Below are positions 31,168 to 63,506 of a stretch of 64,000 nt of DNA, one piece after another; position 1 is the first letter of the stretch, and every line of letters begins with the position of its first letter. A program made the position numbers and the translations under genes. The stretch lies in assembly GCA_001600055.1 (NCBI GenBank), contig BCIV01000020.1, forward strand, positions 439,196 to 503,195. The letters are read 5' to 3'. The notes under the pieces were generated by a model. That model saw only the letters and a program-made list of their open reading frames with translations, was not told where the DNA came from and searched no databases. The stretch comes from Filobasidium wieringae (taxonomy: Eukaryota; Basidiomycota; Tremellomycetes; Filobasidiales; Filobasidiaceae).

Positions 31168-31315
31168 TTACAATTCAGTATGAGGATCGGCGGTGGGTTC
31201 CGGTACGGCAGAAGTGGCGGTGAGTTTCTCTTTGCCCTGTTCGACCGACCATTTGACCGCGCTGTGATCGGCTGTGGAGTTGATCACCTGGTTGGGGCGG
31301 GGATACGGGCGGATC

Positions 31316-31350
<35 letters not shown>

Positions 31351-32620
31351 GACCTTGTGAGGAGTTGGAGGAATAGGCCAGCGCCGAGACTTACGACAGT
31401 GATGAACCCTTGTAATCCTTGCGAAATGACGGAACCCATGTAATGCATGTCCCACATCGATTGGTACCCCCCGATCTGGCTGTCCTCGAAGATGTTCAAG
31501 GAGTCTTGCCAGTTCCTCGTTCGGCCTCTACCGGGCATGGTTCGGAGGTGGTTGTTGACCTGTCGCATGAGAAGCAGGGGAGGGGAAGGGTGCGGTTAGT
31601 TGTGGAAGGGAGTGGAGGGAGGGAGAGAAAGGGAGGAGACGCACGTAAGGGTACATCATATCGACCGCACTGTTGATATCGTCGGGAACGAAGAGTTGAC
31701 CGGTATGAGCCAACGTCTTCCCCGTATACGTGGCATTATCATAGACCTCGTATTCGGGATGAACTCGGATATGCCAATGCGTGGCTCGTCCGGTATAATA
31801 CCCCGGGAAGATGGATTGGAATTCCACAATCCCATTCTGATCCGAGATCTGAGCGCCTCGGAGCCAAGTCTCACCGTCGTTGGCGTTGGGGTAGGCGGAG
31901 AGGAGTCCTTTCCGATGACCGGTGGAGGCTGGGAGTTCGTCCGTTAGGTGAGCGTGGGGACGGGGGTGACCGGCGTAGTACCCTAGGGCGTCGCAGTGCC
32001 AGAGATCGAGGAGGACGTTGGAGATGGGTTCGCACGTGTTCACGTCGATCAGACCGATCTGCATGTTCATAGGGAGACCGTCCTTGAGTTCGGCCAGGTT
32101 GGAACGGATGGGGTGTTGTCCGTCCTGCGGGAAGGAAAGAGCAGGGGGTCAGAACGGGCGAAACGGTGTGCGCGAAGGAGATCCTGCTTACGTGGAAATA
32201 AGGTCCTTCTGTTACTTCCGGAGCGAGAACACAGGTATGGTTCCTGATCTCTGTAGGAGCGACATCATGACAAGCCAAGATCTTGTCCACCTCCTTGCCC
32301 GTCCCCTCAGCAACACCGGCAGCTTCACTGAGGAAGAGCTTCTGATCGCTATAACTCGCTCCACCCAGAGCCTTTTGGGCCCATTGTCGCTGACGTTCTT
32401 GGTTGTAAAGAGCGATCTGGGGGGCACAGAGGTATGAGGCTTGTTTGAGTTTGGCTAGGGAGGCCTTCTCTTCGGCTGATTTGGGGCCCTCGTGTGAGTG
32501 AGCTAGGGGGCGTGGAGAGACGGGGTCAGTTGGGGCGTGGGGGGGAGAGGTTGGGGAGCACTGCTCACCAGTGACAGCTGAAGCTGCTATGAGGAGAGCT
32601 ACAGATTGTTTGAGAAGCAT
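31168..32620 (-). CDS. Secreted intradiol ring-cleavage dioxygenase
   Basis: Fe3+-dependent dioxygenase that opens catechol-type rings between the two hydroxyls. Minus-strand exons: 32620-32569, 32502-32192, 32124-31645, 31559-31395 and 31287-31168, giving 375 residues. It starts with a signal peptide (MLLKQSVALLIAASAVTA, then HSHEGP). A helical segment follows, then the intradiol core: APEVTEGPYFH (first Tyr ligand), DGQHPIRSNL, VLLDLWHCDALGYY, and FPGYYTGRATHWHIRVHP with the second Tyr and both His ligands. This architecture is the fungal extracellular dioxygenase type rather than the bacterial or fungal intracellular protocatechuate 3,4-dioxygenase. The gene heads away from the CoA-transferase gene across a 314-bp shared promoter, so it belongs to the cluster, yet it should act outside the cell. 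Substrate (protocatechuate, catechol or hydroxyquinol) unknown. Confidence 0.9.
31318..31347. repeat. CT dinucleotide repeat in an intron
   Basis: About 14 CT units inside the last intron of the secreted dioxygenase gene. Confidence 0.9.
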
Positions 32621-32934
32621 GGTTGAGAGTGGTTTCCAGTCGATCTGAGCGATGTCGATTCAGCGAATTCAACGTGATTTTCTCTTTTGAACGATTCTTA
32701 TTTGTCGATTTCCGCGAGTTTGACAGTTCGGCAAGTTCGGCAAACGGATCCGCAACCGAGCCAAAGGGACGGAATGACCGTTGTTCCGGGTGATTTTGCT
32801 TCCGATGACGGGAGAGCATCCCGGCCGACAGATCCAGGTTTATATCATCGAAATACTCAATTCAACAGATTTCTCTTCCTTCTCAACTTCCTCTACTCCC
32901 TCTTCCTCTCCCTCTCTCACCCCAACACGCAACC
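32621..32934. promoter_or_regulatory. Bidirectional promoter, dioxygenase / CoA-transferase
   Basis: 314 bp between two divergent ATGs of the cluster. It contains a perfect CGGATCCG palindrome at 32745-32752, directly after a tandem GTTCGGCAA GTTCGGCAA, which are plausible Zn2Cys6-type half-sites (CGG triplets). A TTTATATC element lies near 32838. Confidence 0.5.
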
Positions 32935-35179
32935 ATGTCCCTCCTGGCACGAAGATCCATCCTCAACTCCTCTTCCCTAGCTATCCGTAGATACGCAGCA
33001 CTCGCGGGAACCCCACCTAAAAGTCACAAGATCTACGAATCGGCAGACGATGCGGTCAAAGACATTCAATCGGGAAGCACCTTGTTATCATCCGGTACGC
33101 CCGCTCCTTCTTTCCTTGCCTTTCATGTGATCTGGTCTGATTCGGATTGCGCTGTTCTGCGGCTGATAGGATTCGGGTTCTGCGGAACACCTAATACCCT
33201 CATCCAAGCGCTTTCTAGGAGACCGGAAGTGACGGGCCTGACGGGTGTTTCCAATAACGCAGGGAATGGGGATAAAGGTTTAGGTACGTTTCGGATCGAG
33301 CTCATCAGTGTGCTAGCCATTGAGATACGCGTGAGAGCTGACCGGGCGGTGCGATGGCGGTTCACGGAGAGTAGGGTTGTTATTACAGACAGGACAGATC
33401 GGGAAGATGATCGCTTCTTATATCGGCAAGCAAGTCTCCCGCTTCTTCCTCTTTCCCTCCTGATCTCCTCATCTAACCTCCATACCTCTCACCTCACCTT
33501 ACTTCCCCCCCTTTCACCCATCCAACCCACCCAGTAACAAAGAATTCGAAAAACAATACCTAACCGGCCGGATCTCCGTGGAACTCACCCCCCAGGGAAC
33601 CCTTGCCGAACGGATCAGAGCGGGGGGAGCGGGTATCCCCGGGTTTTATACGGCTACTGGAGTGGATACGCCCGTTCAGGATGGGAGCGTTGCGGAACGG
33701 AATGGGGAGGATGGGAAGGTTGGTCCCCCTTTTTTGTTCTTTTTTGTCACGTCCCCGAGGGATTGACGCATTGACTTCATCCGAATGCGCTACCAGGCCA
33801 TAGCGTACCCACCTGCAAGGGAAGTGATGGAATTCGATGGGAAGAAGTATCTCTTGGAAAGAGCTATCAAGGGGGATGTCGCTTTCGTCAGAGCGTGGAA
33901 GTGTGATCCGGCAGGGAACGTCGTCTTTCGATACGCCGCACAGAACTTCGGGGCCGCTATGGCTAGGAGCGCTAGGTGTACTATCATCGAGGTAAGGTTC
34001 GGCCTCTCTTTCACGATGTTTGAATGGTTCGTTGAGAGTCTAGATGCACCTGCTGACCGGATCCGTAACGGCGATTAGGCAGAAGAGATCGTTCCCCTCG
34101 GATCGATCGATCCCATGCAAGTCCATCTTCCGGGAGTCTACGTGGATAGGATCGTCCAGGCCACGACGGAGAAGGAGATCGAGATCGAGACGTTGATGCC
34201 GGAACCGGGGGACGATAGTAAAGCCAAAGCCGCTCTGGGCGCGGGAAGCGCGAGGGCCAAGAGGGAAGAGATCGTCAAGGTGAGTCCCCCTTCATCTGTT
34301 TGAACCATTTTCGATATTTCGATGACTGATTCGCTCATTTTCATTTGCGTCACAGAGAGCGGCCCTGGAATTGGAGGATGGATTCTATGTCAACCTGGGG
34401 ATCGGAATGCCAACGCTCATTCCAAGTTTCTTACCGGAAGGGAGGAAAGTATGGCTTCAGTCGGAGAATGGGATCTTGGGAATGGGACCGTTACCTACCA
34501 GGGAACAGATGGATGCGGATATCATCAATGCTGGAAAGGAGACGGGTGGGTTTCGATCTTTCTCGAGAAGAGGAATAATGGCTGATCGAGAGGGTTGACA
34601 GTCACGCTCGTACCCGGAGCTAGTACGTTTGATTCGGTAGAGTCGTTTGGAATGATCAGGGGTGGACATGTGGATGTTTCCGTCCTAGGTGTGAGTCTGG
34701 CGTTTCCCCTTACTTCTCGCTTGATCGATTTGCTCACCGGGATGTCCACGCCACCGCATAGGCGATGGAGGTCAGCGCGACGGGAGACCTGGCGAACTGG
34801 ATCATACCCGGTAAACTCGTCAAAGGGATGGGAGGCGCTATGGACCTCGTCTCCTCCCCCGACGAGACCAAGATCATCGTCGTCACCGATCATTGCGATA
34901 AGAAGGGGAATCCCAAGATCTTGGATCAGTGTAGCTTACCCTTGACCGGATCGAGGTGTGTCAGTATGATCATCACCGAGTTGGTAAGTCGTCGATCCTT
35001 CCCTCTCGCTCGGAGACTCGATCCGTGACCTGACCGACGCGCTTATTTGATAGGCGGTCTTTACGATCGACCGAAAAGCGGGCAAGATGACACTGGCCGA
35101 GTTGATGCCCGGTGCTACTTTGGAGGAGGTCAAGGCCAAGACGGGAGCAAAGTTCGAGGTCGCTGCTGGGATTCAGTAG
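32935..35179 (+). CDS. SCOT-type succinyl-CoA:3-oxoacid (3-oxoadipate) CoA-transferase
   Basis: Transfers CoA from succinyl-CoA to a 3-oxoacid; in this cluster the likely substrate is 3-oxoadipate. Ten exons (32935-33094, 33170-33283, 33393-33429, 33535-33718, 33797-33991, 34079-34279, 34356-34545, 34602-34690, 34762-34983, 35054-35179) give 505 residues with fused alpha and beta halves, as in eukaryotic SCOT. Seen motifs: [65 protein letters not shown], and in the beta half NLGIGMPTL and the catalytic Glu in [10 protein letters not shown]. An Arg/Ser-rich N-terminus ([20 protein letters not shown]) suggests mitochondria, where succinyl-CoA is made. Intron 3 has a GC donor (AA|gcaagt), needed to rebuild IGNNKEF. 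Confidence 0.93.
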
Positions 35180-36844: not shown

Positions 36845-37789
36845 CTACTTCTCCGCATGACGAAAAGCAGCGGTAGGCTCGTACTCTTTCCAAAGCTCGA
36901 AAGTCCTCGTCAATCTGTGAGATGTCAGAGGACCGAGGGAATCGTCGTACCACTTCATCAGGGATGTGTAGGATTCTTCCTCCAGGATCGAGGGGTTTGA
37001 GAATTCTATATGAGGTGAACGGGGGAGGAGGAGAGTTAGGGAAAAGAGTTTGGACGGGCTGAGAGGGATGAGGAGGTACGGACCGATTACTTGGATGATA
37101 GATCCTACGTCCGCCTTCTCGCTTCCTTCCGCCTTGACTTTCAACCCGGATCGGACCGTGTCGACGTTATCGTACCTACTAGATCGGAGGAAACCGGGAA
37201 GAGCCGCGAACCGGGATTCAGAGGAGGCTAAGAGGGCCGAGGTTTCTTCTGACAATTTCGTGGGAGTGAGGGTTTGGAAGATGACGATTTTGGGTGCAGG
37301 GGAGGTAGGGGTGAGCTTGGAGCTGGATGCGGTCTGTTTGTAAATCTATCGTGGAGCGGGAGGACGTTCAATGGATACAGTCTCCACATGAAGAACTACT
37401 GATGGACGTACTCGTCGATCAAGTACTCCTAATCGTCCGACCAAAGCGGCTTCCCGGGGTGAACGGTTGGCTCGTAATTTAGTATACTCTTCTTGACCGA
37501 AGATGGTGTTATCGCTGATCGCATACATCGCACCCCATTTCGGCTCGAGGTTGTCGAGCGCTTTGAACCGAGCTGCAGTGGTGAATGTGGGGAGGGAGGA
37601 GGTTCTGAGAGGAATGTGTTCGTTATCGTACCAGTCTGGGAAGGTACCATCGAAGATAGTTCAGTAATTACGATCTAGTAAGAGGTTGATTAAGTGGAGG
37701 TACTGACCGTGGAAATCGTGCTCTGTCACTTGCTCGCCCAACTCAGCGAATACGAGTAGGAGACCTGGTCCAGCTTCGAAGGTGGTCAT
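36845..37789 (-). CDS. EthD-like protein with two ferredoxin-fold repeats
   Basis: Function unknown. Minus-strand exons 37789-37708, 37635-37412, 37333-37084 and 37005-36845 give 238 residues. Two halves resemble each other in layout, as in proteins that form a dimeric alpha+beta barrel within one chain. The first is LLLVFAELG, then HDFHDWYDNEHIPLR and FTTAARFKAL; the second is PKIVIFQTLTP, then a helix, FLRSSRYDNVD, and a KWYDDSLGPLT motif. The DWYDxEHxPLR signature is typical of EthD-type proteins in fungal aromatic and polyketide catabolism (family knowledge). The gene is divergent from the carboxymuconolactone fusion gene across only 311 bp, which suggests a role in the same pathway, for example on a lactone or aldehyde intermediate (inference). 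Confidence 0.75.
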
Positions 37790-38100
37790 TGTGATGGTGG
37801 CGTGAGTGGTTCTGGATATGGATGTGGATGTGGATGTGTGTGAATCTGCTGAGGAGATCCAAGAGAATTCGAGAGAGTCTATCTTGTGAATATGAGGTTG
37901 GTTGCTTGGTCGCTGAGGTGGACGGACGTGCCCGGAGAAACCATAAACCCGGCTAAATCCGAACCGTCCGTACGCGACGCTGCTGCTGCTGGATGTTCAA
38001 TGTTCACTACTGTGACCTCGTTCATCTCAATTTCGAGCACATCGTCGTCCAATAAATCGTCGACACCCAACACATCAACACCCAAAAACAACCAACCGCG
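37790..38100. promoter_or_regulatory. Bidirectional promoter, EthD-like / CMD-hydrolase fusion
   Basis: 311 bp between divergent ATGs. A GGATGT tandem repeat lies at 37814-37838. ACGGACG (37922-37928) and CGTCCGT (37965-37971) form a spaced inverted pair, and CGG-N6-CCG occurs at 37923-37934. Confidence 0.5.
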
Positions 38101-39671
38101 ATGCCTCGTGTACCTTATAGATTCCCAGCACCAAAGACGGACGCAGTGGCAGATCGGATCCGTGAGCGTCGAGCTCCCAGGGATCTTACTTCGCTCGATG
38201 GGATGTTACTCAACGCTCCAAGCGTAGCGGACGGTTGGAACTCGTTCGTCGGTGGTCTGAGAACACGAACTAGTCTGACGGACGATGTGAGAGAGTTGAT
38301 GGTGGGTCCCTCGATTCACTACAGCTAGTAAAGAGCAAACGACTGATCCGATTTTCGAGATAGATCTTGAGGGTCGCTGCTTGTAATCGAGCAGCGTTCG
38401 AATGGATCCATCACGAACATATCGCCCGTAACGCCGGTGGGATGTCATACGAACAGTTATCCATCGTCGGATCGGTCCCCCCTGCCCATTTGGGGGAATA
38501 CAACTATACGGTACCCACCTCTTCGACCGGGCAAGAAGGGATCGGACACCGCTTGACGCCTTTACAATCCGCCGCTCTGGCGTTCGCGGACGCTTCGACG
38601 AGAAACGTGACGGTCCCTGCGACGGTGTTTGAGACTTTCGAATCCCGCCTGGCTGAGGAACTGGAGAAGAACCCCGTCAAGGATAAGACCACTGGGAAAG
38701 AGGTCACCCCTGAACAACAGATCGTGGAAGCCACGGCGGTCGTAGGGGGTTACAACCTCGTCAGTCGATTCCTCATCGCTTTGGACGTGGATGACAAGTC
38801 CACCTTGCCCGTCCCCTGCCCCGAGACCCACCGGGTTCCCATTCCCGGGACGAAGGGCGAGTTACATACCCTCCGTCTCCCCGCGCAGGGGGAGAAGACG
38901 GGGAAGACGATAGTCTTTGTGAATTCGCTATTGACCGATTATACCATGTGGCGATACGTCTGGGAAAAGTTCAACAAGGAGTACGACCTGATCTTTTACG
39001 ATCAACGTGGGCATGGGGCTTCTCACGTTCCCACACAGGAGGAAGGGGGGTGTACGATGGATTTACTCAGCGATGACCTGGCCCTGATCCTGGATCACTA
39101 TCACATCCAAAAGGCTCACGCAGTCATCGGGGTCTCTCAAGGCGGAGCGACCGTTTTGAACTTTGCCATCCGACACCCATCGAGGACCCTCAAGATCGTC
39201 GCCTGCGATACCCAGGCGAAGAGTCCCGAGGCGAACGTGAAAGCTTGGAACGATCGGATCGAGCTCGCCAAGAAGGAAGGGATGGGGAGTTTAGCGGACG
39301 CCACGATCCCTCGTTGGTTCTCTTCCGACTCCTCTTTCGATACGGGAAAGGATTTCGGTTGGTTGAGAGCGGGAGTGGAGGGGATGACGGTCAGAGGGTT
39401 CGAAGCGGGTGCCGCGGCTTTGCAGGGTTACGATCTTTTGAGCAAGGGGTTGGTACGGGTCCTTGCGGATAGGGGGAAGAGTGATGTTCTGTTACTCGCC
39501 GGAGAGATGGATGGCAAATTACCGGACGGTCTGAAAGCGCTCGCGCAGAGTGTCAACGAAGCCGGTGGGGAAGCTCAGGTCGAAATCATCCCCAAGGGCG
39601 GTCATTTGCCAATGGTCAACGAGGCGAAAAGGTGGATAAAGACCGTATTGGATTTCGTAGACGATTGCTAG
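38101..39671 (+). CDS. Carboxymuconolactone decarboxylase / enol-lactone hydrolase fusion
   Basis: Predicted bifunctional enzyme making 3-oxoadipate from the carboxymuconolactone, with loss of CO2 and lactone opening. Two exons (38101-38301 and 38364-39671) give 502 residues. Residues about 1-240 are an AhpD/CMD-type helical domain (ELMILRVAACNRAAFEWIHH EHIARNAGG, then LTPLQSAALAFAD). Residues about 250-502 are a PcaD-like alpha/beta hydrolase: TIVFVNSLLTDYTMWRYVWE, YDQRGHGAS, nucleophile Ser325 in GVSQGG, Asp in GEMDGKLP and His in KGGHLPMV. Bacterial PcaL fusions have the opposite order (hydrolase first). The family knowledge that ascomycete carboxymuconolactone hydrolase does both steps fits. 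High confidence in both domains; exact lactone isomer inferred. Confidence 0.92.
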
Positions 39672-39828
39672 CTTGTTACAAAAGGAAACGATAACTTTTC
39701 AACGTAGTGTCTAGATGAAGATGACTTGACGATAACTAAATCAGCGAGATGATATGATTAGACAGACCCAGATGTGTTCATGGTTGATTTGATGAGGTCC
39801 AACTGCTAACGACCGTTGCTGGAAGGAA

Positions 39829-42785
39829 CTACAAGTCTGGGCGCCCGTACAAGGCTTCATGACTTTCGTTCCCCAAGCCGCGGAAGTCCATGAGGCTGTG
39901 GTAGTGGTCGTAAAACTGGAAGTATCGCGCCATGTTCTCGGAAATCGATGGCTCAAGCTTTTCACTTAGCTTGAATACCTTCTTGTCGTGGCCAACGATA
40001 AGGACGTTCAATGGGGGCATGGGGTCACGTGGCAATCGGGTGCTTTGTCTTCTCTCTTCGGCCACCTCGACGCCAGGGGTTGCACCCTGCAGGGCGAACC
40101 ACATACGCAACGAGCACTTGCCCTGAGGGTTTTGCGATGTACAAGAAGTTTGCACTGTCTTACCGACGAAATCGCGGGCCCAGCCGGATTTCGGCGAATG
40201 ATGGCCTGATTTAGTCTGAAGCGCAATAAACGTTACCTTGCTGGGATCGAAAAGATCTTCCGGACGACCGGTGTATACAGGGAGAATCGCATCCCAACCT
40301 TGCTGACTATTCCCGCCTATAATAGCGGCGTGTCGGATCCAGGCTTCAACGATGTCAGAGTGGGAGAGAGGTTCGTCTTCCGAAAAGTTTTTAGTGTACG
40401 CAACAAAGTGGGTGAAATTGAGAAAACAGCCGTGACTCCAATCCAGTAGTCGCTCGGGTGGTTCCTGAAGGAGCTCTTTTACCCAAGCTGTAGCCGGAAC
40501 AGCATCAAATTCCGAAAGACCTTTTTTATAGTACGCCACATCTATCGACGCCGTGAGTAGCATTCGAATAAATTCTTCACCTGTCTCTCCAAGTAGGAGT
40601 TCATTAGCTCGGTTGCTGACCGTAATCGCATGGAAAGTATCGTTCCATGCATCTATAGGATCAACGGATCGGAATGCCTTCGCAGCTGCCAAGCTGCTGG
40701 AAGGTAATCAGCAGGTATCGACGTCAACATCTCGAGCCGAATGTCGCACTGACCTGAGCAGAGGCTCGGAAGGGCTACGAGTGACTACAAACGGGTCTGC
40801 TGAATCGGTAACCTCTACCAGTCTGCGCATGTGTCTTCCGACGAGAATTTCAGGAAGTGCGTGAGGTGATGAAGTATCTTGACAAGGACAGAAGATTGCT
40901 AATTTTAATGACCACAAAGAAATCAGTTGCAGGATCACTTACGAGTGTGACCAAGAATTTGCAGTGGAAGTCGATGACAAGCTAGACCGACCCTAATCGC
41001 GATCGCTGTGGGATCATTCTTGCTGTATCTCCAGAGACCTGGAACCCCGTCTGCGCTATGCTTGACACCGACTAACTTCTGAATCAATGGAAGGAGATTG
41101 ATCGACGTGGCATCGGCAGAAGCTCGGCCTGTATTTTCAAGACGTCTGAGTAGGGTCGAGTCATTGAGCAGTGGACGGCCCATTTTCCTGAGATAGGCTA
41201 ATAGTTCCCCATGAGTAACTTGCTTTTCACCCCGAACGATAGCAGCGAAGTCGTGGCGAGTCGAATTATCTTGATCAATCTCTACGTCTATAGGAAGACC
41301 TGAGAACGACCTCGGCATGCTCATCGACCTCAAGCGTAAAGAGGAGTCGTAAGCTTCCCTTCCAGCGAGCGAAGAAATACTCGTATTGGTATCAAGGAAG
41401 AGTAACCAGCAACGAGTACGGTCCATAGCTATATCAGCCCACGTAGTGCGCAGCAAATGCACGTGTTCGCCGATCTGACTGCATTCATCGATTGCGAGGT
41501 GGAAGAAGGAGTCCCCGCTGGGTGGCAGGATCGTCTCGAGCGTCTCAAAAGCTTTTACAGCGTGCGCAATGACAGCTGCGAAGCTCTTACTCTTGCATTC
41601 TTCGAACCGCTTGCTGGCAAGGCGATCGATTCTTTCAAGGAGCTTCATGCGCTCAGATCCGGTAGTGCGTCGCGTATGTTCGAAGCTCACGGTCCCGTTC
41701 TCGCCGATTGGATCCAGAAGCCGAGCTATATGTTCCACAAGGCTTTTCCACTCGCCGTCAGTCAGTGGTTTGTCGGCCGGTTGCGGGAACATATCGGCCC
41801 GCTGCTTTCGTACAAAGATTGTCATTGTCGAAGCAACAGCAATGAGCCAACAAGTCATGCGTCTAGCCGCAATCCCACGCTCTTCGTTCCCCTTCGGGGC
41901 AAGCCACTTCATGACCAGCTCATCCTGCGCAGGTAGAGACGTTGAGATATCCGGCGGCGCAACTCGTCTAACGCAAATAAATAGGCCCAATTCTTCTTTG
42001 CCTAACTCGAGCACGGCCCTGGTCTTCCCCGACCCAGAGGACTGGAGGATGGGAATGATTCTAGAGTAATTTTTTGCAGGGTCATACCCTTCCGCAACCC
42101 ACGCAATATGTTTTCGCAAGTTCCTGGCGCCGGCTCCGATGTATGGCCTGTGGAAGGAGTCTATGAGGGCTTCTTGATGAATGATGTCGGCCGGACCGGG
42201 GAACGATCTTTCTGTCGGACCCCGGTAGGTAGCAAGAAGATCGTTCATAATATCAGAGACCGATGACAACACGAGAGTGGACGATTCCAGAATGCCTTCG
42301 ACAAGCTTCTCAGTCGCTTCCCGTGAACCAGAAGCCGATTTGTAGTGCATGAATTCAGATAGCCAAAAAGGTGCCGAGGTGAAGTCTGGAGCAGCTTTGA
42401 CCACGTCTTTCGCATCTAGAGTGATGACAAGGTGTCGCAGGAAGACTTGTGCATCGAATATTTCGTCTAGTTTGATTTCGGTCCCAGTTGGACGTGTTTG
42501 AATGCTCCGCTCGAACTTTTCAAATAATTCCCGACACATTGCAAGATATTGAATAGTAACACTCGTGAGTACCGTTCCTTGATCAACCGGCAATTGATCG
42601 AGCCATAAGATGAAAGGATCTAGCTGTAGCTGCATACTTCGATTGTCCGATATCTCGATCCCAGATTGAGCGAGTTGTTCGGCCGGTTCGATGTCCCCCC
42701 TCATCTTCTTCCTCGCGGGGGATTTGCTGGTACTGTCCTGAGACGTGCCATGCTCGACTTCCTCGACGTGCATTTCTGCATCCAT
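39829..42785 (-). CDS. Crinkler-type P-loop NTPase with C-terminal nuclease-like domain
   Basis: Large protein of unknown role. Minus-strand exons 42785-40943, 40877-40754 and 40696-39829 give 944 residues. A P-loop stands at about 250 (PILQSSGSGKTRAVLELG) and a Walker-B-like FFHLAIDECSQ at about 430. The SSGSGKTR wording is typical of the Crinkler (CRN)-related NTPases found in many fungi and oomycetes (family knowledge). Near 815, VTFIALQTKSG has the hydrophobic-x-QxK form of a PD-(D/E)XK-type nuclease core, and LNVLIVGHDKKVF follows. No signal peptide or classic CRN N-terminal domain is seen. The start is the first in-frame ATG after a good acceptor; a 5' exon upstream is possible. Nothing ties it to aromatic catabolism. 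NTPase call good, nuclease call tentative. Confidence 0.7.
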
Positions 42786-43792
42786 GATCTGGTAGTCAAA
42801 ACTCAGAGTTGGGTTGTGCCGACTACCCCTATCTGCCGTGTCAAAAGGAATAGGGTTGTCCAAACGGTCAAGGCTGTAACACACGAGGGCGCGGCGATAA
42901 GATAGTTTCTGATATCACACCAGATGATCGTGATCAGGTTCCTTCGGATATCCCCACAAGGATGGGTCATCGGACTAACCGTTTGCTTTTGTCGATCGAG
43001 CCAAGGTTGGGTTTCGAAAGGTCCGGGGCGTGGCTTGCGATGGACTACAGCTATCAACACAGGGCATAATACGATGAGTTTCTGTTCAAAATTCAAAAGA
43101 AACTATAGGAAAGGATACTCACGACTGATACTTGCGTTTTTCAGCAACCGCAGTCGGAAATCAGTAATCAAATGATCCCTCTGTTGAAAATGACTGTTCA
43201 GCGTAGGCCCAAGAACGAAAGCGTAGATCATACTCACCGAAGTCCAGCAGCCGGTTCCTCTGGCAAGTGATCACGATTGGCAGCTTCGATCAGTTATGGC
43301 AGGATGATCAACTACCTTGAACGGACAAGATTGTCCAGAAAGGCTTGTTAGATTGAATGTGACTGATTGCGTCATCGGAGACTCACAGTTGATTCGGCGA
43401 AGAGCACGATAGGTGGTCTGATCAGACTGTCCAGTAGTCCCGCGTGGATGAGACGTGGCAAAGTTCTGGAAATAAGCAGGATGGGGGTGGTATAGTGATT
43501 AGACTGGTATTTGTAGTAGCCGGAAGGTGGGTGAATGCTTGGTTGATGGCGGACATAGGGACGATGGCCTGTCCACACCGAGCGTGAGTTTGGGAGACAC
43601 GTCACTATTGATGTCACCTTATCAATCTTCGGGGCCCCTGAACCGTTGGTTATCTGCTCACCGCTGATATTATTGGTCTTTCCAGTTCGACGGTTCATAG
43701 TCATAGTCAAGTCTCCATCGATCGCTTGTACAAGTGACTGCATCAATAGCGTCCAGCTACCAATTTAGAAGCATTCAACTCGTCCTCTGAGG
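42786..43792. other. Divergent intergenic region (NTPase gene / Zn2Cys6 gene)
   Basis: About 1 kb between divergent starts. It could hold an upstream exon of the NTPase gene (a minus-strand frame is open to about 43096). No other gene is supported; the 124-codon minus frame at 43372-43746 lacks domain content. Confidence 0.4.
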
Positions 43793-47111: not shown

Positions 47112-47151
47112 TTTACATATCAACCTTGACCTGTTCGAAACAGCGATTTCT

Positions 47152-50779: not shown

Positions 50780-50827
50780 AGTAGGCTTTAGAGCGATGTG
50801 TCGTCTCGACGAGGTAGATAAGTGCGT

Positions 50828-53340: not shown

Positions 53341-54557
53341 CTATGTAAGCGCTCTGTCCACTTCCAACTCGGTAGGAGTGATATCCTTCATCCCCTCGAC
53401 CAACTCCCTGGCCTTCCTCTCCGTCTCTTCCCCCAAGAGAGACTTGTCACACGCCACTTGTAATCCCGCATCGCCCTTTAACCACATCCTCTGCTGAGCC
53501 AATCCTTGTTCTATCATCGCTTGGATCCCACCGATCGGTTGCCATCCCAAAGCCTCGGCGATCTTGAGCAACGGCGTGAGACGAGGTTTGTAGGCCATGT
53601 CTAGGAAAAGACGGGGTGTGGGGAGCGGGAGTGAGGAGGACGTCGTGGTGGACTGGCCCGGTCGGAAAGGGTAGTTGAGGATGTGCGTCGCGATCGTGTA
53701 GACCATTCGTTCTTCCAGACTTTTGGGGGTGATCGCTGTGGCATATTCGATCGTAATCAGTATCGTGGACGGGGATCTGATGACTGCAGGCAGCCTTCTC
53801 ACCTGGAATGGCTCCCACGATCATCGCCACGCCTGGTTTTCCACCCTCCTCGCTCAAGTACCTTTCGACATCATCGACGCTCTTCAGATGAATCAATTCG
53901 ACGCCCTTGCCATCCTTCTTCTTCCCCTCGAATTCCTCTATCGTGATCTTCACCTCCCCCTCATCCCTGTTGGCCAGGAAGATGGGGTTCATTCCTAGTG
54001 TGTACAGAGCGTGTACGGCAGAACGGGTGGTGGCACCTCCTCCGATGACCATTCCCGATACTTGGCCTGGAGAGTAAGTATGGGAGATGGATAGAGGTTT
54101 CGAGGGGTTCTGAGCTTGGAGTGCTGTTGAGAGGGAATTCCTTACGCCTGGTGATCGAGACGGGATTCGCATCAGCTGATTCGACAGTGCGCGAAAGGAC
54201 GACCCGAGACTGACCTAGGAAATCCGTGTTCGTGCCTACGAGTTTGATCGATCCGTCTTCCCTCTTGACTCGGACGACGGTGTTACAAGCACCGGTAGCG
54301 TAACTCTCAGGTGAGATCTCGTCCAAGTGCTTCATCACTTCCGCTTTCAGCGGCATGGTCACCGCCGCACCGCCAGAAGAATCGCTTCGTAATTCGTCCA
54401 ACACTGCCTGATCGATCTTAGTCGTGGACCATCGTTTGTATTCCTTGGGCGAGTCTATAGATTGGAAACACATGTTGTGTAGGGTCGGGGCTGCAGAGTG
54501 AGCGATGGGGAATCCGAATAGGTAGACATCTTTCTTGGTCGTGCTGGTAGTCGACAT
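53341..54557 (-). CDS. Quinate/shikimate 5-dehydrogenase (catabolic)
   Basis: NAD-linked oxidation of quinate to 3-dehydroquinate (and shikimate to 3-dehydroshikimate), the entry step of quinate use; equivalent to qa-3/qutB. Minus-strand exons 54557-54215, 54147-53803 and 53735-53341 give 360 residues. The substrate domain shows LFGFPIAHSAAPTLHN, catalytic Lys in GGAAVTMPLKAEV, ATGACNTVVRV and the Asp in GTNTDFLGVRNSL. The Rossmann loop reads VIGGGATTRSAVHAL. The long insertion around residues 235-290 and the C-terminal GGIQAMIEQGLAQQRMW fit fungal catabolic enzymes rather than biosynthetic AroE. Divergent from the quinate permease gene. The unspliced frame from exon 1 continues about 50 codons of nonsense, which supports the intron. 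Confidence 0.92.
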
Positions 54558-55125
54558 CGCGATCGTGTGTGGGTATTGTGAGGTGAATGAGGAGCTGCAA
54601 TAGAGACCTGATTGGACTTGAAGTTGCAACTTTTGTGCGTGCAGCGTTGCGAACAGGTGACGAACTTGGGTTTCTTGCGAACGAATCAATCGAGCGAGAT
54701 AACCAATCATCCGGGTCGCACTGTGGAACATCCTTTCCTCCAGCTGGAGTCCCCGCGGTAGGGAGTCATCCAGCATCCGCGAGCATTTACTTCCTTGTGA
54801 CGTTCCCGCCTGGTACCTCCACCTGACTGTTGTGGGGATTGACCTTTTCTCCACTCGATTAGAGATTCTCCACAATTCGAGATTCTGTTGGCTGAACCAA
54901 TAAACTCGCGGTAAAGATATATAAAATAGTGCAGCATTGACTCGATCACAACTTCAATTCTTCCACTCGCTCGCTCACACACTCGACCTCACAGCCAACC
55001 ACACAGAGCACTCGCCACCAACAACATCTCGAGGGGATCACAACCTGCCAACGACCTCGCTGTGACACCTCACTTCACCTCACCCACTACATCACCCGAA
55101 ACCCGAAACACACGCCTCATCTATC
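54558..55125. promoter_or_regulatory. Bidirectional promoter, quinate dehydrogenase / permease
   Basis: 568 bp between divergent ATGs. ATATATAAAA at 54917-54926 faces the permease. Several CCG/CGG triplets (CATCCGGG near 54709, CCCCGCGG near 54751, CATCCGCG near 54774) give possible Zn2Cys6 half-sites but no long palindrome. Confidence 0.5.
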
Positions 55126-56937
55126 ATGGTCAAACTCACCATCGTAGAGGACAGACCGACCCCCAAAGAGGTTTACAACTGGAAAGTATACACTTTCGCC
55201 TGTCTAGCATGTTGGGCTTCCGTCATGATCGGATATGATGTGAGTCCCGTCACGACCGACTCTCGCTCATTAAAAGACTCGAAAAACGAAACTGATCATC
55301 TCTCTTTGTTCCCCTCGCACAGTCCGCCTTTATCGGAACTTCCATCTCGCTCAAATCGTTCAGAGATGAATTCGGTCTCACCGGAAAGACGACCACCGAT
55401 CTTAATTATCTCTCTGCCAACATCGTATCGACCTACCAAGGAGGATGCTTCTTTGGAGCCCTTTTCGGTTACCCCATCGGTTACTGGCTCGGAAGGAAGT
55501 GGGGTCTCACTTTCTGCGCAGTCATCTTCTGTGTCGGTGCCGTCCTCCAGGTCGTCGCTAGCAGCAAGACCGGTCTTGGTATCATGTACGCCGGAAGGTT
55601 CATCGTCGGTTGGGGTGTCGGTGTCGCCAGTAACTTGACCGTGAGTCTTAAAGTAAAGACGTCACCTCGTATCAATCTGATCAAACCCACTCCACCTTCT
55701 AGCCCATCTACATCGCCGAGATCTCTCCCCCTGCCATCCGTGGTCGTCTCATCGGTCTCTACGAAGCCGGTTGGCAGATCGGTGCCGTCGTCGGTTTCTG
55801 GATCAACTACGGTATCTCCAAGCACATCCCTTACGGTAACAAACAATGGGTCATCCCCTTTGCCGTACAACTCATCCCCGGTGGTATGCTCGCCATCGCC
55901 GGCGCTGTCCTCACCGAATCCCCTCGATGGCTCGCTTCCAAGAACAGGAACGCTCAAGCATTGAAGAACTTGGCGTTTTTGAGGAACTTGCCCGAGGATC
56001 ACACTTATGTCCGAGAAGAGATGGCCGAGATCGAGATGGCTCACGAACGTGACCAAGCCGCGGGAGGTGCAGGATTCATGGGACCCCTTCGAACCTTGTT
56101 CCGATCAAACGCCTACCTGAAGAGATTGGCCATCGCCGTCTCCCTCTTCGCCATGCAGAACGGAACCGGTATCAACGCCATCAACTATTACTCGCCCACC
56201 GTATTCAAGTCCATCGGTGTCGCCGGAACCAACACTTCCTTGTTGACGACCGGTATCTTTGGTCTCATCAAGTTCTTGGGTGCCATCATCTGGTTGCTCT
56301 ACCTCGTCGATCGATTCGGACGAAAGGCCATCCTCATGATCGGTGCCGCCGGTGGAGCGTTCTCCATGTACTACATCGGAGCTTACATCGCCATCGCCAA
56401 GCCTCAGAACAATGCCCCAGGAACCCCACTCTCTTCCGGAGGTACCTCTGCCATCGCCTTCTTCTACATCTGGACCATCTTCTACTCGGCCAGTTTCAAC
56501 GGTACCCCCTGGGTTTACGGTGCGGAGATCATGCCCACTTTCGTCAGGGCCGCCACTCAGGCCGTCATCTCGGCTTCCAACTGGTTGTTCGCCTTCTTGA
56601 TCGCGAGGTTCACCCCTCAGATGTTCGCCAAGATGGGTTTCGGAGTCTACATGTTCTTTGCCAGTATGATGGTCGTCTCCATTCCCCTTGTTTACGTGAG
56701 TCGCCTCGTTTGCATCTCGTACGATCGTCGCGCTGATCATACCCTCTTCTTCAGCTCATCATCCCCGAGACTTCCGGTGTACCTCTGGAGAAGATGAACG
56801 ACCTGTTCGAGCTCCCCGCCCGAAAGGCCCACATCATCATCCGATCCCAACTCGAGCGAGCTCCTGCTACCCCCGAAGGCGGTTACTTGGAGACCGAGGA
56901 CGAGAAGGCGATCGACCAACGAGTGGAGTACGTCTGA
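55126..56937 (+). CDS. Quinate permease (MFS sugar-porter family)
   Basis: Plasma-membrane importer of quinate, equivalent to qa-y/qutD. Exons 55126-55239, 55323-55640, 55703-56695 and 56755-56937 give 535 residues with twelve predicted helices. Sugar-porter signatures: GYWLGRKWG, PIYIAEISPPAIRGRLIGLY, EAGWQIGAVVGFWINYG, LTESPRWL, MQNGTGINAINYYSPTVF, DRFGRKAILMIGA, and a PETSGVPLEKMNDLF end. GWQIGAVVGFWINYG and the GVPLEKMNDLF tail are close to known quinate permeases (family knowledge). Head-to-head with quinate dehydrogenase. Codons are strongly C-biased, more than in neighbours, suggesting high expression when induced. Confidence 0.92.
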
Positions 56938-58430: not shown

Positions 58431-59667
58431 TCAACGAGAAACGGCTTCGTGCAATTTCTTCAACCCGTCAATCCCCCTCTGTCCATGAGTCTGTACCGTA
58501 TCCTCCTTCATCGAGTCCAGACTCGCATTAAAAACTTCTAAGCTCCAAACCCCCTTGTATCCCATTCGCATCAACGTCTTTGTGAATTCCTGAACGGGGA
58601 GGTAGCCTTCGGATTCCATCGGGAAGAGTCGCATCTTCCTTGACCAGGCCATTCGGCTTGGGAATGACGAGTGGGGGAGAATGGGGGAGGAGGGAAGTGC
58701 GGCGTCGGCGATTTGGTACAGGAAGATCTTGTCTGCTGGAATCCGAACGGAAAGGGAATGAAGGTTATCGGTAAGAGTGGAGTCAGGTAGGGGTCGACGA
58801 CCGGAAGGTTCCGAGGGATCTGCCCATTGTTGGCCACTGAACGATGGTGAACTTGTCAGTGATCGGAGACAGGCAACGTAGAGCAACGGCACAAACGACG
58901 TACAGTTGATTGAAAGAGTCCAAGATGATACCGACGTTCGGTAGATCCACCCGCTCAACGATATCCCACACCTGGTCCCACCGATTGACAGCGGTTCCCC
59001 AGGCAAGTGCTTCGTGTCCGATCTTGACACCATATCGTTGTGCCAGGTTCCCCAGCTCGGTAAACGCTACGATCTGGTCTTCAGCGTATTCTTCTCTTGT
59101 CGTCGAGGACATGGGGTCGACCGGAAGGAAGTTGGAACAGACGAGAAGGAGATCGCACTTCATCTCGGGCATGATTCGGAGGTAGAATTCAGCCCGATCG
59201 AGAGCCACTCTTAAACGGGGATGAATCGATCCAGACTTTCGCATCATTCGACTAGCTCCCTTGAAGTTTTCGAATTCCCTGAAAGGCTGGAAACAGCTTA
59301 TGAAGAGTCCGTAGGTCTCGCAGTATCGACCGATAGCTCTTGCGCACATCGTCTCGACATCCTTGACATCGCTCACACTCGCCCAGTCCGCTTCGGTGAA
59401 CATCTCAGAGTGAGCGCCAACTCCGACTTCATGTACAAAGGCATCGAAATCGGGGATGAAGAGCTCGATCGAGTCGTATCCTAGTCGAGAGGCGGTTCTG
59501 ATCTTCTTTGGCAAGCTGTGATGGACGTTGGTGCCGAGTGATAATGTTGCGATGGAATAGGGAGGATGTTCGAGATCTCCCAGGACGCTTGTTGCGGGAG
59601 TGGATAGGGCATGGTGGTCGACAGGGGAAGTGGACATGGGTGTTGCGACAGAGGAAGTCGTGGACAT
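58431..59667 (-). CDS. 3-dehydroshikimate dehydratase
   Basis: Converts 3-dehydroshikimate to protocatechuate, linking quinate use to the beta-ketoadipate pathway; equivalent to qa-4/qutC. Minus-strand exons 59667-58904 and 58836-58431 give 389 residues. It is a metal-dependent TIM barrel of the xylose-isomerase-like superfamily: IATLSLGTNVHHSLPKKI, LGYDSIELFIPDFD, ISCFQPFREFENFKG, CDLLLVCSNFLPVD, VKIGHEALAWGTAVNRWDQV, VGIILDSFNQLGQQWADPSE, and finally GVWSLEVFNASL. The acidic residues in IELF, HEAL, LDSF and LEVF are the likely metal ligands. The first 40 residues are low-complexity and vary in the family. Head-to-head with dehydroquinase. Confidence 0.93.
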
Positions 59668-60057
59668 TGTGATAGCGAGCCTAGGGTATGAGAGGATGTG
59701 CGAGGATGAAGTGAGTGGCGTATGAGGTGTCGAGTGACATCGTGCGAGGTGAAAGAGAAGTCTCCGATTCTGAAGATTTCGAGTTGTAAGTAGGAACAAG
59801 CTCGAGCATGAGAAAGTGTTTACCCATTCAAGCGAAACCACAGATTCACACGGAGATACATTCCTCCGACTTTCGTAAGCCTAAACTCGGCGTGGGAAAA
59901 GGGTTTCTCCCCGGCTTACCCGGTGACAAGCGCGTCACCTGAAGATGCCTTGTCCTGTTTTATCTTCTGCCAAAGCTGTCGACTGTACGTAGATGTTGTG
60001 GGTGTGGAAGGCTATTACTGTGAAACGTATCCCGAACAAGACTACGTCAAGATCAAG
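59668..60057. promoter_or_regulatory. Bidirectional promoter, dehydroshikimate dehydratase / dehydroquinase
   Basis: 390 bp between divergent ATGs. Two inverted repeats stand out: CGGAG-N8-CTCCG at 59851-59868 (a CGG-N12-CCG arrangement) and a perfect GGTGAC-N6-GTCACC at 59922-59939. Either could be an operator for the cluster regulators. Confidence 0.55.
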
Positions 60058-60670
60058 ATGGCATCCACATCATCCTCACCCATCAAGATCCTCCTTCTTC
60101 ACGGTCCCAATCTCAACCTCCTCGGAACACGTGAGCCCGAGACGTACGGGTACGATACCTTGAACGATGTAGAGTCGAACGCCAAAAACATAGCCGAGAA
60201 AAACAACGGGACACTGGAAGCATTCCAAAGCAATCATGAAGGAGCGATTGTAGATCGGATACATCAAGCTCGAGGGGAAGGGGTGGATGGGATCCTGATC
60301 AATGCCGGTTAGCTCTCGATTCGTTAGCTAATGGTTGACCGAGAAGACTCATGTTTCGGCATTTCAATCTCTCACTATCGTAGGTGCCTACACTCACACC
60401 TCAGTAGCCATCAGAGATGCTCTGTTAGGAGTATCAATTCCCTTCATCGAGATTCACATAAGCAACGTGCACGCGAGAGAGTCTTTCCGACATCACTCTT
60501 ACCTCTCGGACAAAGCGGTCGCTGTCGTTTGTGGAATGGGTGTTGGCGGTTATGGTAAGCCGAAATCAGAAGCCCACTGATGACCTGGCTCCTGACTGAC
60601 ATGACTTGCGGCTATCTACGTAGAATATTGCGTTGCCCATATGTGCAAGACGTTCAAGAAGAAACAATGA
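60058..60670 (+). CDS. Type II 3-dehydroquinate dehydratase (catabolic)
   Basis: Dehydrates 3-dehydroquinate to 3-dehydroshikimate; equivalent to qa-2/qutE and distinct from the type I domain of biosynthetic AROM. Exons 60058-60307, 60384-60554 and 60624-60670 give 155 residues, normal for type II. All landmarks are present: [20 protein letters not shown] with the reactive Tyr loop, [36 protein letters not shown] (NPGAYTHTS with Pro replaced by Ala), [19 protein letters not shown], and GMGVGGY. The ATG at 60058 is chosen because upstream in-frame residues are not conserved in type and would precede the domain. Confidence 0.94.
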
Positions 60671-60992
60671 TCCATTCCGATCTCTGGCATAGGCTACAGC
60701 CATCCCAAGTAACGAACTGATTGTAATTGAACATATCTGTATACCTTCCTTCCTCTCTAGCCTCTAGGCCTCTAATGCATGGTTATTGTCCCGACCCGGT
60801 GGTTGTGTTTGAGACCGACTTAATAGCGTATATGCGTTTTTAGCTGCCGAAGATCGCCCAAGACGCCAAGACGTCAACGACGGTCTATCCACTTCGAGTT
60901 TGCCTTCTCCATCTCGTCCCTTCTTGCTTGCTCTACCTCTTTGACTGAAAGATCAATCCTAGTCACCATGACCACATTCGTATGACCTGAGA
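60671..60992. other. Short intergenic region
   Basis: 322 bp between two same-strand genes: terminator of dehydroquinase and promoter of the repressor. No regulatory palindrome noticed. Confidence 0.4.
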
Positions 60993-63506
60993 ATGCAAAA
61001 CTTCAACGCAAGGGCACCACCAAGTCGTGCCCCGACCCGGCCCGCTTCTCCGGTTAATCAGAGGTACGGTAGAGATGCTGCTGTTGTGCTCGTAGGGCAG
61101 AGGGGAGGTGGGTACGAGTTTGCCCGTGAGACTTCCCTACCATTGTTCTGATATGGGTCGTACTAGTGGGAAAATCTACGCTTGCTTTCATCGCGGCTCA
61201 AGCTTTAGGAAGTGAGATCATAGAAACAAGGCAGTTACCGGCAAGTCGCCGGAAAGAAGATCGCCTAGATCGAGATCAATCGGCGTCAGAGCTTCCCGAT
61301 AAAGATACTAGACCTAGCTTGGGATCGATTCTGTCCGACTATAGAAGGGGGAATATTCTGGTGATCGACTCGGACGAACTATACTCGCCGGATAGCAGGA
61401 TCGCTTTAGGCCATTTCGCCCAGACTATCGGACCGGTTATACATGTCACCAGAGAAAAGGACAAGGTTCTGGAATACTTAGGATCTCAGGAAGATGTTCA
61501 AAACGAGGATATCCAACGGATCAAGGATGAATGGGACGGCACGGAATCGATGTTGCTGGAGCTGTGCTCGTACTCTTTCGTCTCCCTCTTTTGCAGTTCG
61601 GATACCTCGTCTAATGGTCATGGGAAGCAAACAACCTCCACCAAAGACGATGTTCAATCATCAACAAAAGGAATCACACAAAAACGACTATTGGGGCCCC
61701 ACCTTAAACCTCTTGAACGAGATTTCATTCGATTACTACGCTTCATACATGGCGTCTATACCAACCACGTGCCAATCACCTCCAATCGATCCTACCTCCT
61801 TTCCCTCACTTATGGTCACGTCTCTCAACTCATTCCACACATCGAAGAGCTGGCCATCGGAATCGATTGCTGGGAACTTCGGGTCGACCTCCTAGCCCAC
61901 AACGACCCCATATCACTCGCTCAACAAATCTCGCTGTTGAGGCGGCATTCAGATCTGCCTATATATTTTACCATGCGAACACGCTCGCAAGCAGGGATGA
62001 TGCCAGAGTTCAAGGATGAACCAAGTCTGGCAGGATATCAGCGTGCCATCCTCTCTCTCGCGGTCAAGATGGGGTTGGAATACGTGGATATCAGCCTTAC
62101 CTCTCCGTACGACAATATCACCAACATCGTCCGGAACAAGGGCAACTCGCAGATCGTCATGTCATGGCATGATCTCGCCGGACGGGTCGGCTGGTCTGGA
62201 CCAGAACCACGGTCCATCATCGATTACGCCTGTAGAGAGGGAGCCGACGTCGTCATGATGATCGGGTTTGCAAGGGATTTCCAAGACAACCTGAGTTTAA
62301 GGGCATTTGTCGAGGAGGTGCAGTCGAGGAGAATACCAATCATCGCCTTGAACGCCGGGACACAGGTCAGTACGGCGCCGGCGTGCTAGAATCGACATCG
62401 GTACTGAAACCTTGACAACATCGTAGGGCAAAATGTCTCGAATACTCAACAACTTTCTGACTCCGGTCTCTCATCCCGCGATGGCAAAGGTTTCCTCACC
62501 AGGACAGGTCTCGTACTTGGAACTGCAACAGGTGAGTATGCACCCTCATGAGCGGCTTTCTACACGCTGACTCTTGGCCTACTAGGTCTTGTACTTGACG
62601 GGACTCTCGAAACCACTCGAATACCATATCTTTGGAGCCGACGTCAAGACGACAGCATCGTCGATCATGCATACCGTCGGATTCCGCGCTCTCGGTCTGC
62701 CACATCGGTACCACATCAGCGAAGCTCACGACATACGAGCGTATGAAACGATCCTCAACGATCCAGCTTTTGGAGGGGCCAGTATCGCTCGACCGTTCAA
62801 GGTCGAAATCAATCGATACTTGAGAAGATTATCGAAGCACGCCTATGCCATAGGTGCCATCAACACAATCACCAGTACACCAAGCGGTCCCGTAGGAGAC
62901 AACACCGACTGGAAAGGGATAAGAACATGCATCAACCGCGCACTCGCCCCTGAAAACGCATTGAACGCAAATACGACAGCACTAGTCATCGGCGCCGGTG
63001 GAGTCTCAAGAGCCGCCATCTACGCTCTCAATCATCTCGGAGTCAGCAAGATCGCACTCGTCAATCGATCCATACGAAACGCTCGCGAGCTGGCAAACGA
63101 CATTGTCGCCCTCGATCCACAAATGCAGGTCCAGGTCATCGACAGTATCGAGCCAAACGCCGTACAAACACTGGCGTTGCGTCCGCGTATCATCATCTAC
63201 GCCATCCCTCTTCCTGAAAAAGGCGACCCGGATCGGATACACCTCACACCACATCAAGGTTTACTCACACTACCCGGAGGCGGCGTCTTGCTCGACATGA
63301 CATTCCAAGGCGACACCAGCCGCTCGATCCTGCTGGAGCTCTCGACACGCCCACAAAATTCGTCTTGGGCGTTTGTGCCCGGTATCGAGGTCCTCTTGGA
63401 ACAAGGTTACGAGCAGTTCCGCCTGTGGACCGGAAAAAGACCCCCAAAAGTAATCATGCGCGAGGCCGTGTTGCGCCAGTTTTATAGTAGCAAGTTGTAC
63501 AAGTAG
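60993..63506 (+). CDS. Quinate-pathway repressor (QutR/QA-1S-like, AROM-derived)
   Basis: Likely repressor protein of quinate catabolism, homologous to the last three domains of pentafunctional AROM. Exons 60993-61107, 61167-62365, 62427-62531 and 62586-63506 give 779 residues. Domain 1 (about 30-190) is shikimate-kinase-like with an intact P-loop, [20 protein letters not shown]. Domain 2 (about 200-440) is type I dehydroquinase-like: SWHDL keeps its His, but the segment [15 protein letters not shown] has Met where catalytic homologues have the Schiff-base Lys. Domain 3 (about 470-779) is shikimate-dehydrogenase-like ([39 protein letters not shown]). No dehydroquinate synthase or EPSP synthase domain precedes it, so it is not AROM. 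In ascomycetes such proteins bind and silence QutA/QA-1F; here no such partner lies in the window. Confidence 0.9.

Follow-up and report, generated by a model that had tools for sequence, protein, structure and literature searches.

A subtelomeric gene cluster of Filobasidium wieringae probably encodes a complete route from quinate to succinyl-CoA and acetyl-CoA

In a 64,000-nt stretch of the Filobasidium wieringae genome (hereafter "the window": contig BCIV01000020.1, or C20, positions 439196–503195, 51.4% GC; 33 contigs and 19.76 Mb in the full genome), we identified a catabolic gene cluster at window positions 31168–63506. We consider it to be, with a probability of roughly 70%, a subtelomeric supercluster through which this Filobasidiales-like basidiomycete would convert quinate to succinyl-CoA and acetyl-CoA. 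Fifteen genes were spliced in this interval by dynamic programming and by hand, and in-frame stops were found in 0 of the 15 models. Twelve of them make up two adjoining blocks, one associated with protocatechuate and beta-ketoadipate (31.2–50.8 kb), the other with quinate (53.3–63.5 kb). A sequence-only reading of this DNA had listed quinate and protocatechuate gene families, from a permease through to two regulators, within 32 kb, and sequence searches against Pfam, NCBIfam, and PDB found every one of these families, placing 11 of the 15 genes, all intact, within them. The additions to that list are a gene at 36845–37789, the divergent partner of a fusion gene described below, and three genes without evident pathway role. 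As for the same reading's proposal that the locus is one supercluster, the gene content stands, but the linkage proved to be patchy, parts of the arrangement were already known, the dioxygenase is not of the cytosolic PrcA kind, and the promoters lent no support to joint regulation.

In the pathway that we propose, quinate would enter the cell through an MFS sugar-transporter-family permease (55126–56937, + strand; Sugar_tr 407 bits), presumed to be a quinate permease from its position. Three cytosolic enzymes would then lead from quinate to protocatechuate: a single-domain shikimate/quinate dehydrogenase (53341–54557, − strand; Shikimate_dh_N 67.6 bits), a type II 3-dehydroquinase (60058–60670, + strand; DHquinase_II 197 bits, E 2e-58), and a 3-dehydroshikimate dehydratase of the QA-4 kind (58431–59667, − strand; AP_endonuc_2 94 bits), the last assigned by size and context. 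These three enzymes and the permease are linked, as in the qa/qut clusters. The quinate dehydrogenase, which has a Filobasidium floriforme homologue at 77% identity over 98%, is the only match found in the genome besides AROM and the repressor described below, and the dehydroquinase is the only complete type II copy found.

The ring of protocatechuate would be opened to 3-carboxy-cis,cis-muconate by the clustered intradiol ring-cleavage dioxygenase (31168–32620, − strand; exons 31168–31287, 31395–31559, 31645–32124, 32192–32502, and 32569–32620 in the refined model). Two further proteins would lead from there to beta-ketoadipate, namely a carboxy-cis,cis-muconate cyclase (49224–50779, + strand; Lactonase 53 bits), whose only PDB match at E ≤ 0.001 is the Neurospora-type cyclase 1jof (E 2e-12), and a fusion of carboxymuconolactone decarboxylase (CMD) and enol-lactone hydrolase (38101–39671, + strand; Abhydrolase_1 and CMD, with CMD first as in PcaCD). 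The fusion matches the NCBIfam models PcaD and PcaCD, both below cut-off, and its best named homologues are from Filobasidium floriforme (60%) and Naganishia (58% and 56%). Its architecture is not new, since full-length homologues occur in many named Basidiomycota and bacterial PcaCD counterparts exist. The last steps, to succinyl-CoA and acetyl-CoA, would fall to a 3-oxoacid CoA-transferase, presumably acting on beta-ketoadipate and succinyl-CoA (32935–35179, + strand; CoA_trans E 8e-111; ten exons, one GC-AG intron), and to a presumed 3-oxoadipyl-CoA thiolase (47152–48896, − strand; Thiolase_N/C; eight exons; Cys/His/Cys motifs present). The former joins alpha and beta parts in one chain and scores above cut-off for the NCBIfam subfamilies pcaI_scoA and pcaJ_scoB. 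Both enzymes belong to the families expected of the pathway, a match at the level of family and not of substrate, and their N-termini look mitochondrial by eye, which suggests that these steps probably take place in the mitochondrion.

Two putative regulators complete the cluster. A Zn2Cys6 transcription factor (43793–47111, + strand; Zn_clus 33.7 bits, Fungal_trans 66.9 bits), the only clustered factor of this type, lies in the protocatechuate block and is the candidate activator, a possible counterpart of QA-1F/QutA. At the far end of the cluster, a three-domain protein of 755 residues (60993–63506, + strand; DHquinase_I, Shikimate_dh_N, and SDH_C) is homologous to the last three domains of AROM, with 29% identity to the genome's own AROM over 774 columns, and is the only AROM-like repressor of the QutR/QA-1S kind found in the genome. 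The lysine of the AROM motif GDIAKLVG, presumably the catalytic residue of the dehydroquinase domain, aligns to a methionine in this protein, which, as expected for its kind, would be a sensor pseudo-enzyme. The activator, restrained by this intermediate-sensing repressor, would probably control at least the quinate block.

The genes are arranged with marked regularity. From left to right, the first block carries the dioxygenase (−) and CoA-transferase (+), the 36845–37789 gene (−) and fusion (+), a gene at 39829–43231 (−), the Zn2Cys6 factor (+), and the thiolase (−) and cyclase (+); then come a GNAT gene (−) and a gene at 51579–52769 (−); the second block carries the quinate dehydrogenase (−) and permease (+), the dehydroshikimate dehydratase (−) and dehydroquinase (+), and the repressor (+). 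Ten of the 12 block genes thus form five divergent pairs with start codons 311–568 bp apart, and their shared promoter regions lie between dioxygenase and CoA-transferase (32621–32934, 314 bp), the 36845–37789 gene and fusion (37790–38100, 311 bp), thiolase and cyclase (48897–49223, 327 bp), quinate dehydrogenase and permease (54558–55125, 568 bp), and dehydroshikimate dehydratase and dehydroquinase (59668–60057, 390 bp). This spacing suggests bidirectional promoters common to the gene pairs. Because of the same regular pairing, the 36845–37789 gene (− strand) also appears to be a member of the pathway, perhaps an overlooked enzyme. Its product contains two ferredoxin-like (EthD/ABM-like) repeats by eye; searches of Pfam and PDB at E ≤ 1 came back empty, and at E ≤ 0.01 the genome yielded no second copy. 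Methylmuconolactone methylisomerase provides a precedent for an EthD/ABM-like protein acting as an isomerase, and by analogy one might speculate that this protein does the same. Inspection of the gaps at 35.2–36.8 and 56.9–58.4 kb for hidden genes revealed none.

The cluster is located at a chromosome end. The contig terminates at window base 64000, and its last 96 bases (63905–64000, + strand) recur at other contig ends as a subtelomeric repeat. At least 42 other copies were counted (46 matching rows, itself a lower bound, minus 3 that matched another part of the query and 1 that was the window itself), of which 38 are no more than 5 kb from a contig end and the other four 14–37 kb. All 42 have the orientation of a subtelomeric repeat, i.e., minus in the left part of a contig and plus in the right. 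The distribution of the repeat therefore places the cluster in the last 33 kb of a chromosome arm. Inspected by eye, the last 600 bases showed no telomere repeat.

We next consider how far the two blocks stay together in other genomes. Linkage was read from the contig sizes and locus tags of protein matches, with each protein cluster represented by its longest contig, and the best rows were compared (120 of 297 for the fusion, 120 of 203 for the quinate dehydrogenase, and 120 of 354 for the dioxygenase). The sequence-only reading had held that linkage ought to recur in at least one relative, and it does. In F. floriforme, quinate dehydrogenase and fusion both lie on a 1,165,378-bp contig, a contig-level linkage; a JGI metagenome contig of 24,922 bp carries homologues of the fusion (P0001, 94%) and of the quinate dehydrogenase (P0181, 92%), placed on the same contig from its size; and in the distant Bondarzewia mesenterica, the quinate dehydrogenase (EW146_g2235) and fusion (EW146_g2241) are 6 genes apart, with the dioxygenase (g2238) between them. 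Among the 19 named taxa listed with both quinate dehydrogenase and fusion, three have them on one contig. One of these, Exobasidium rhododendri, was counted as unlinked with tags 660 apart (CBS101457_003860 and 004520), which leaves F. floriforme (on contig evidence alone) and B. mesenterica. The merger of the quinate and protocatechuate halves is thus real but patchy. Separately, in Gymnopus androsaceus a quinate dehydrogenase (P0141) and a dioxygenase (P0343) come from contigs of equal size (683849), a possible further linkage.

Several observations weigh against a single, complete pathway encoded at this locus. The quinate dehydrogenase and fusion are unlinked in 17 of the 19 named taxa listed with both; no cis-element shared by the five divergent promoters was detected beyond chance among spaced dyads, 6- to 8-mers, and CGG-Nx-CCG patterns; and the qa-type site GGRTAANNNNTTAYCC, searched as an exact pattern, is absent from seven promoters and from the whole window. 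In F. floriforme, which has the linked pair, no dioxygenase was present among the best 120 of 354 matches. Protocatechuate would be produced in the cytosol, yet the enzyme that cleaves its ring has the look of a lumenal or secreted protein. Finally, with four CoA-transferase and three Thiolase_N loci found in the genome, the window copies among them, the clustered copies need not be pathway-specific.

The first of these points would be accounted for if two independent clusters merely abutted at a chromosome end, the quinate block under the activator and repressor and the protocatechuate block under a regulator of its own, perhaps the Zn2Cys6 factor inside it. The lack of a promoter motif common to both fits this alternative as well, and so does the layout: the blocks adjoin without interleaving, and two unrelated genes, the GNAT gene and the 51579–52769 gene, stand between them. 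On the other hand, the linkage recurs in F. floriforme at the contig level, on the metagenome contig, and in Bondarzewia, and the only repressor lies at the far end of one block with the only clustered activator in the other, so that a regulatory module, if there is one, spans both. We regard separate clusters as a serious contender at somewhat less than even odds, and we infer that both blocks may be under joint control. In Aspergillus niger, the protocatechuate genes rose in a qutX deletion strain grown on fructose but are described as not controlled by qutR/qutX alone (PMC12610400).

The supercluster reading also depends on the dioxygenase being the enzyme that opens protocatechuate. Its Pfam score of 26.4 bits is just under the cut-off of 27.3, and its closest solved structures are those of a Tetranychus urticae (spider-mite) intradiol dioxygenase (5vg2/6bdj, E 2.6e-25), an animal enzyme with aligned tyrosine and histidine ligand motifs whose C-terminal end falls outside the alignment. 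Y171, Y231, H237, and H239, which we take to be the iron ligands, are invariant in 121 of 121 aligned rows. Members of this dioxygenase family are linked to the fusion, on one contig or through adjacent tags, in 13 of the 26 genomes listed with both (Acaromyces, Testicularia, Pseudozyma flocculosa, Thecaphora, Sporobolomyces koalae, Bondarzewia, Rhodosporidiobolus ruineniae, R. poonsookiae, R. lusitaniae, Rhodotorula sphaerocarpa, R. pacifica, Pseudohyphozyma, and Phenoliferia psychrophenolica), and in the nine linked genomes with comparable tags the distances are 1, 1, 2, 3, 3, 3, 3, 3, and 9. The pair is unlinked in Sympodiomycopsis, Parajaminaea, Violaceomyces, Mycena crocata, M. pura, M. 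epipterygia, M. vitilis, M. alexandri, Roridomyces, Favolaschia, Rhodosporidiobolus odoratus, Guyanagaster, and Leucocoprinus; Agaricus bisporus and Sporobolomyces johnsonii, for which the two matches came from different strains, were omitted from the count. Its intradiol kinship, intact metal ligands, and linkage to the fusion make the window enzyme a candidate protocatechuate 3,4-dioxygenase. Because the window enzyme is 47–52% identical to 14 linked proteins (the 13 and one from a JGI contig), about 29% identical to two pieces of an intradiol enzyme on contig C21, and without significant match to another on contig C12, it is very likely the basidiomycete pathway dioxygenase mentioned by FAMeDB (PMC13094099).

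Searches of the genome with Pfam PF00775 and a protein query returned two other intradiol genes, a signal-peptide-type gene on C21 and the C12 gene, whose product is the only one found without a signal peptide and resembles hydroxyquinol/catechol dioxygenases. A second, cytosolic protocatechuate dioxygenase was not found, which is weak evidence given that the same exon-by-exon searches missed the window's own dioxygenase and CMD domain. Such an enzyme is also unlikely to lie past the contig end, since the contig terminates in the subtelomeric repeat. The C12 locus (C12:818000–822200), about 18–22 kb from a contig end, combines the hydroxyquinol/catechol-like dioxygenase with a paralogue of the muconate cyclase and with what by eye is an alpha/beta hydrolase; the paralogue and the hydrolase were modeled as a single gene.

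Several features suggest that the window dioxygenase belongs to the secretory pathway. It has a predicted signal peptide (MLLKQSVALLIAASAVTA/HSHEG), and a crude hydropathy and cleavage-site rule, one also passed by the unrelated window gene 39829–43231, accepted it along with 106 of 120 homologues (3 without a start Met), against 2 of 120 fusion homologues (6 without Met) and 0 of 120 quinate dehydrogenase homologues (7 without Met). N-glycosylation sequons are conserved at four alignment columns (121/121, 120/121, 117/121, and 100/117), the window protein lacking the one at the 120/121 column. Sequons are also denser in the family, at 1.11 per 100 residues, than in the two control sets (0.28 and 0.27). 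Four cysteine columns are nearly invariant (117/118, 119/121, 121/121, and 121/121).

In addition, the window protein ends in HTEL, and a C-terminal [KRH]xEL is shared by 18 of 120 homologues, compared to 0/120 and 1/120 in the control sets. The strict PROSITE pattern for endoplasmic reticulum (ER) retrieval fits 6 of the 18 tailed homologues and does not fit the window's HTEL; mammalian carboxylesterases ending in HTEL or HIEL are ER residents. In a FastTree tree of the dioxygenases, the distribution of the tail needs at least four changes: it is present in 4/4 Filobasidiales-like rows, in 8/8 neighboring rows including Sympodiomycopsis and Parajaminaea, in 5/5 rows of a Thecaphora/Pseudozyma/Testicularia group, and in two Sporobolomyces rows, and is missing from Bondarzewia and a 69-row group. 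An FWKG or WWKG end without a tail is found in 44 of 120 homologues, Bondarzewia among them. Residues −5 to −8 vary freely in the tailed groups; positions −4, −2, and −1 served as the selection criterion and are not independent evidence of conservation. Four of the 13 fusion-linked dioxygenases carry the tail (Testicularia, Pseudozyma, Thecaphora, and S. koalae) and nine do not, and the tail is therefore not a constant of the pathway enzyme.

Ring cleavage may thus take place in the ER lumen or outside the cell. This creates a topological puzzle, in that the three enzymes expected to produce protocatechuate have no evident targeting signals, whereas the clustered one expected to open it would be topologically extracytosolic. 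There are two ways out: protocatechuate could be brought into the ER lumen and carboxymuconate sent back, or the clustered enzyme could act on extracellular catechols and leave protocatechuate to a different, intracellular enzyme. Under the second option, the clustered dioxygenase would be a secreted or ER enzyme for other plant catechols, e.g., the caffeoyl moiety of chlorogenate, a compound that releases quinate as well. The signal peptide, glycosylation sites, and conserved cysteines are in line with this alternative, as are the spider-mite enzymes as nearest solved structures, the existence of a second intradiol enzyme on C12, and the secreted CDO4 of Ceratocystidaceae, which flanks quinate genes (PMC8896014). 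However, in 13 of 26 genomes the dioxygenase gene accompanies the fusion, also where no quinate dehydrogenase is linked (e.g., Testicularia), the C12 enzyme with its neighboring second cyclase and hydrolase (by eye) looks like a catechol-type set, and FAMeDB cites a cluster-supported basidiomycete protocatechuate dioxygenase (PMC13094099). On balance, we consider a role restricted to other catechols less likely than not.

If the clustered enzyme does open protocatechuate, we tentatively suggest, from sequence features and at odds well below even, that Filobasidiales-like fungi and the relatives of Sympodiomycopsis/Parajaminaea and Thecaphora/Pseudozyma/Testicularia could do so in the ER, with a glycosylated, disulphide-bonded dioxygenase held by its K/H-x-E-L tail, and that the step could be extracellular in tailless lineages such as Bondarzewia and the 69-row group. 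Quinate carbon would then pass from the cytosol to the ER lumen, back to the cytosol, and on to the mitochondrion, possibly to shield the cytosol from a reactive catechol and from the opening of its ring. For Agaricus bisporus, an intradiol dioxygenase, not necessarily of this family, was detected in the secretome although the authors call it putatively intracellular (PMC10329178).

A further alternative, in which the CoA-transferase and thiolase serve ketone-body or fatty-acid metabolism in general and are clustered by chance, leaving the pathway incomplete, would agree with the several copies of each and with an NCBIfam 3-oxoadipyl-CoA thiolase model that scores the window thiolase below cut-off and is outscored by another model, but it is improbable given that both genes form divergent pairs with pathway genes (dioxygenase and cyclase) and that three further CoA-transferase loci could supply the general enzyme. 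The CoA-transferase loci are on contigs C14, C16, C20, and C24, those on C14 and C16 within about 30 kb of the contig starts, and the C16 copy adjoins a gene that by eye resembles a fungal transcription factor.

The locus resembles the qa cluster of Neurospora and the qut cluster of Aspergillus in its quinate dehydrogenase, type II dehydroquinase, dehydroshikimate dehydratase, permease, AROM-derived repressor, and Zn2Cys6 factor. Unlike here, where genes leading from protocatechuate to acetyl-CoA adjoin, those clusters are described as leading to protocatechuate (PMC12610400). None of the 15 window genes was recognized as qa-x/qutG, for which no dedicated search was made, and the qa-type binding site is likewise missing here. 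The A. niger genes prcA, cmcA, chdA, kstA, and kctA cover the same steps, with a Neurospora-type cyclase and a decarboxylase/hydrolase; however, of their locus numbers (01405, 02586, 01409, 01886, and 01526) only those of prcA and chdA are near each other, and the A. niger dioxygenase candidates are non-secreted intradiol enzymes, whereas here all steps lie within 20 kb and the dioxygenase is of the signal-peptide family (PMC10406623). For the protocatechuate branch in basidiomycetes, FAMeDB refers to cluster evidence from Martins et al. 2019, including a cluster-supported protocatechuate dioxygenase and a muconate cyclase paralogue joined with an enol-lactonase, as on C12; its accessible text mentions neither quinate genes nor dioxygenase localization (PMC13094099). 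In Ceratocystidaceae, the intradiol dioxygenase CDO4 likewise has a signal peptide, and its gene has those for dehydroquinase, dehydroshikimate dehydratase, quinate dehydrogenase, and permease on its flanks, but the hosts are ascomycetes, and downstream beta-ketoadipate genes are not named among the flanks in the accessible part of that paper (PMC8896014).

Quinate clusters, the pathway enzymes, evidence for basidiomycete protocatechuate clusters, and quinate genes beside a secreted dioxygenase are therefore already in print (PMC12610400, PMC10406623, PMC8896014, PMC13094099). The suggestion that the locus would be a new arrangement accordingly may hold for the complete merged cluster, but not for the dioxygenase–fusion pair, the basidiomycete protocatechuate clusters, or the neighborhood of quinate genes and secreted dioxygenase. 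Our searches of the open-licence literature turned up neither the complete merged cluster nor any report of ER-type signals on the dioxygenase. A complete route from quinate to the tricarboxylic acid cycle in one locus would make its order, regulation, and transfer testable in a single construct. If the pathway dioxygenase does work in the secretory lumen or extracellularly, it would be a mistake to draw fungal protocatechuate catabolism as a cytosolic chain in part of the Basidiomycota, and there must be transporters for carboxymuconate or protocatechuate. Both the one-locus route and the location of the dioxygenase bear on fungal use of lignin-derived aromatics.

Three genes in the interval have no evident pathway role. 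One encodes a GNAT acetyltransferase (50828–51277, − strand; Pfam), and the other two, both long and without Pfam family, lie within the cluster at 39829–43231 (− strand) and 51579–52769 (− strand). The former of these encodes a large protein with a P-loop-like motif by eye, and its main exon is single copy in the genome at the DNA level. Elsewhere in the genome, a dehydroquinase II-like fragment (31.8 bits), decayed-looking by eye, is found at the very start of contig C29 (C29:15–248). Finally, two quinate dehydrogenase homologues of Bondarzewia mesenterica (P0143 and P0147) carry an extra PF00106 (short-chain dehydrogenase) domain.

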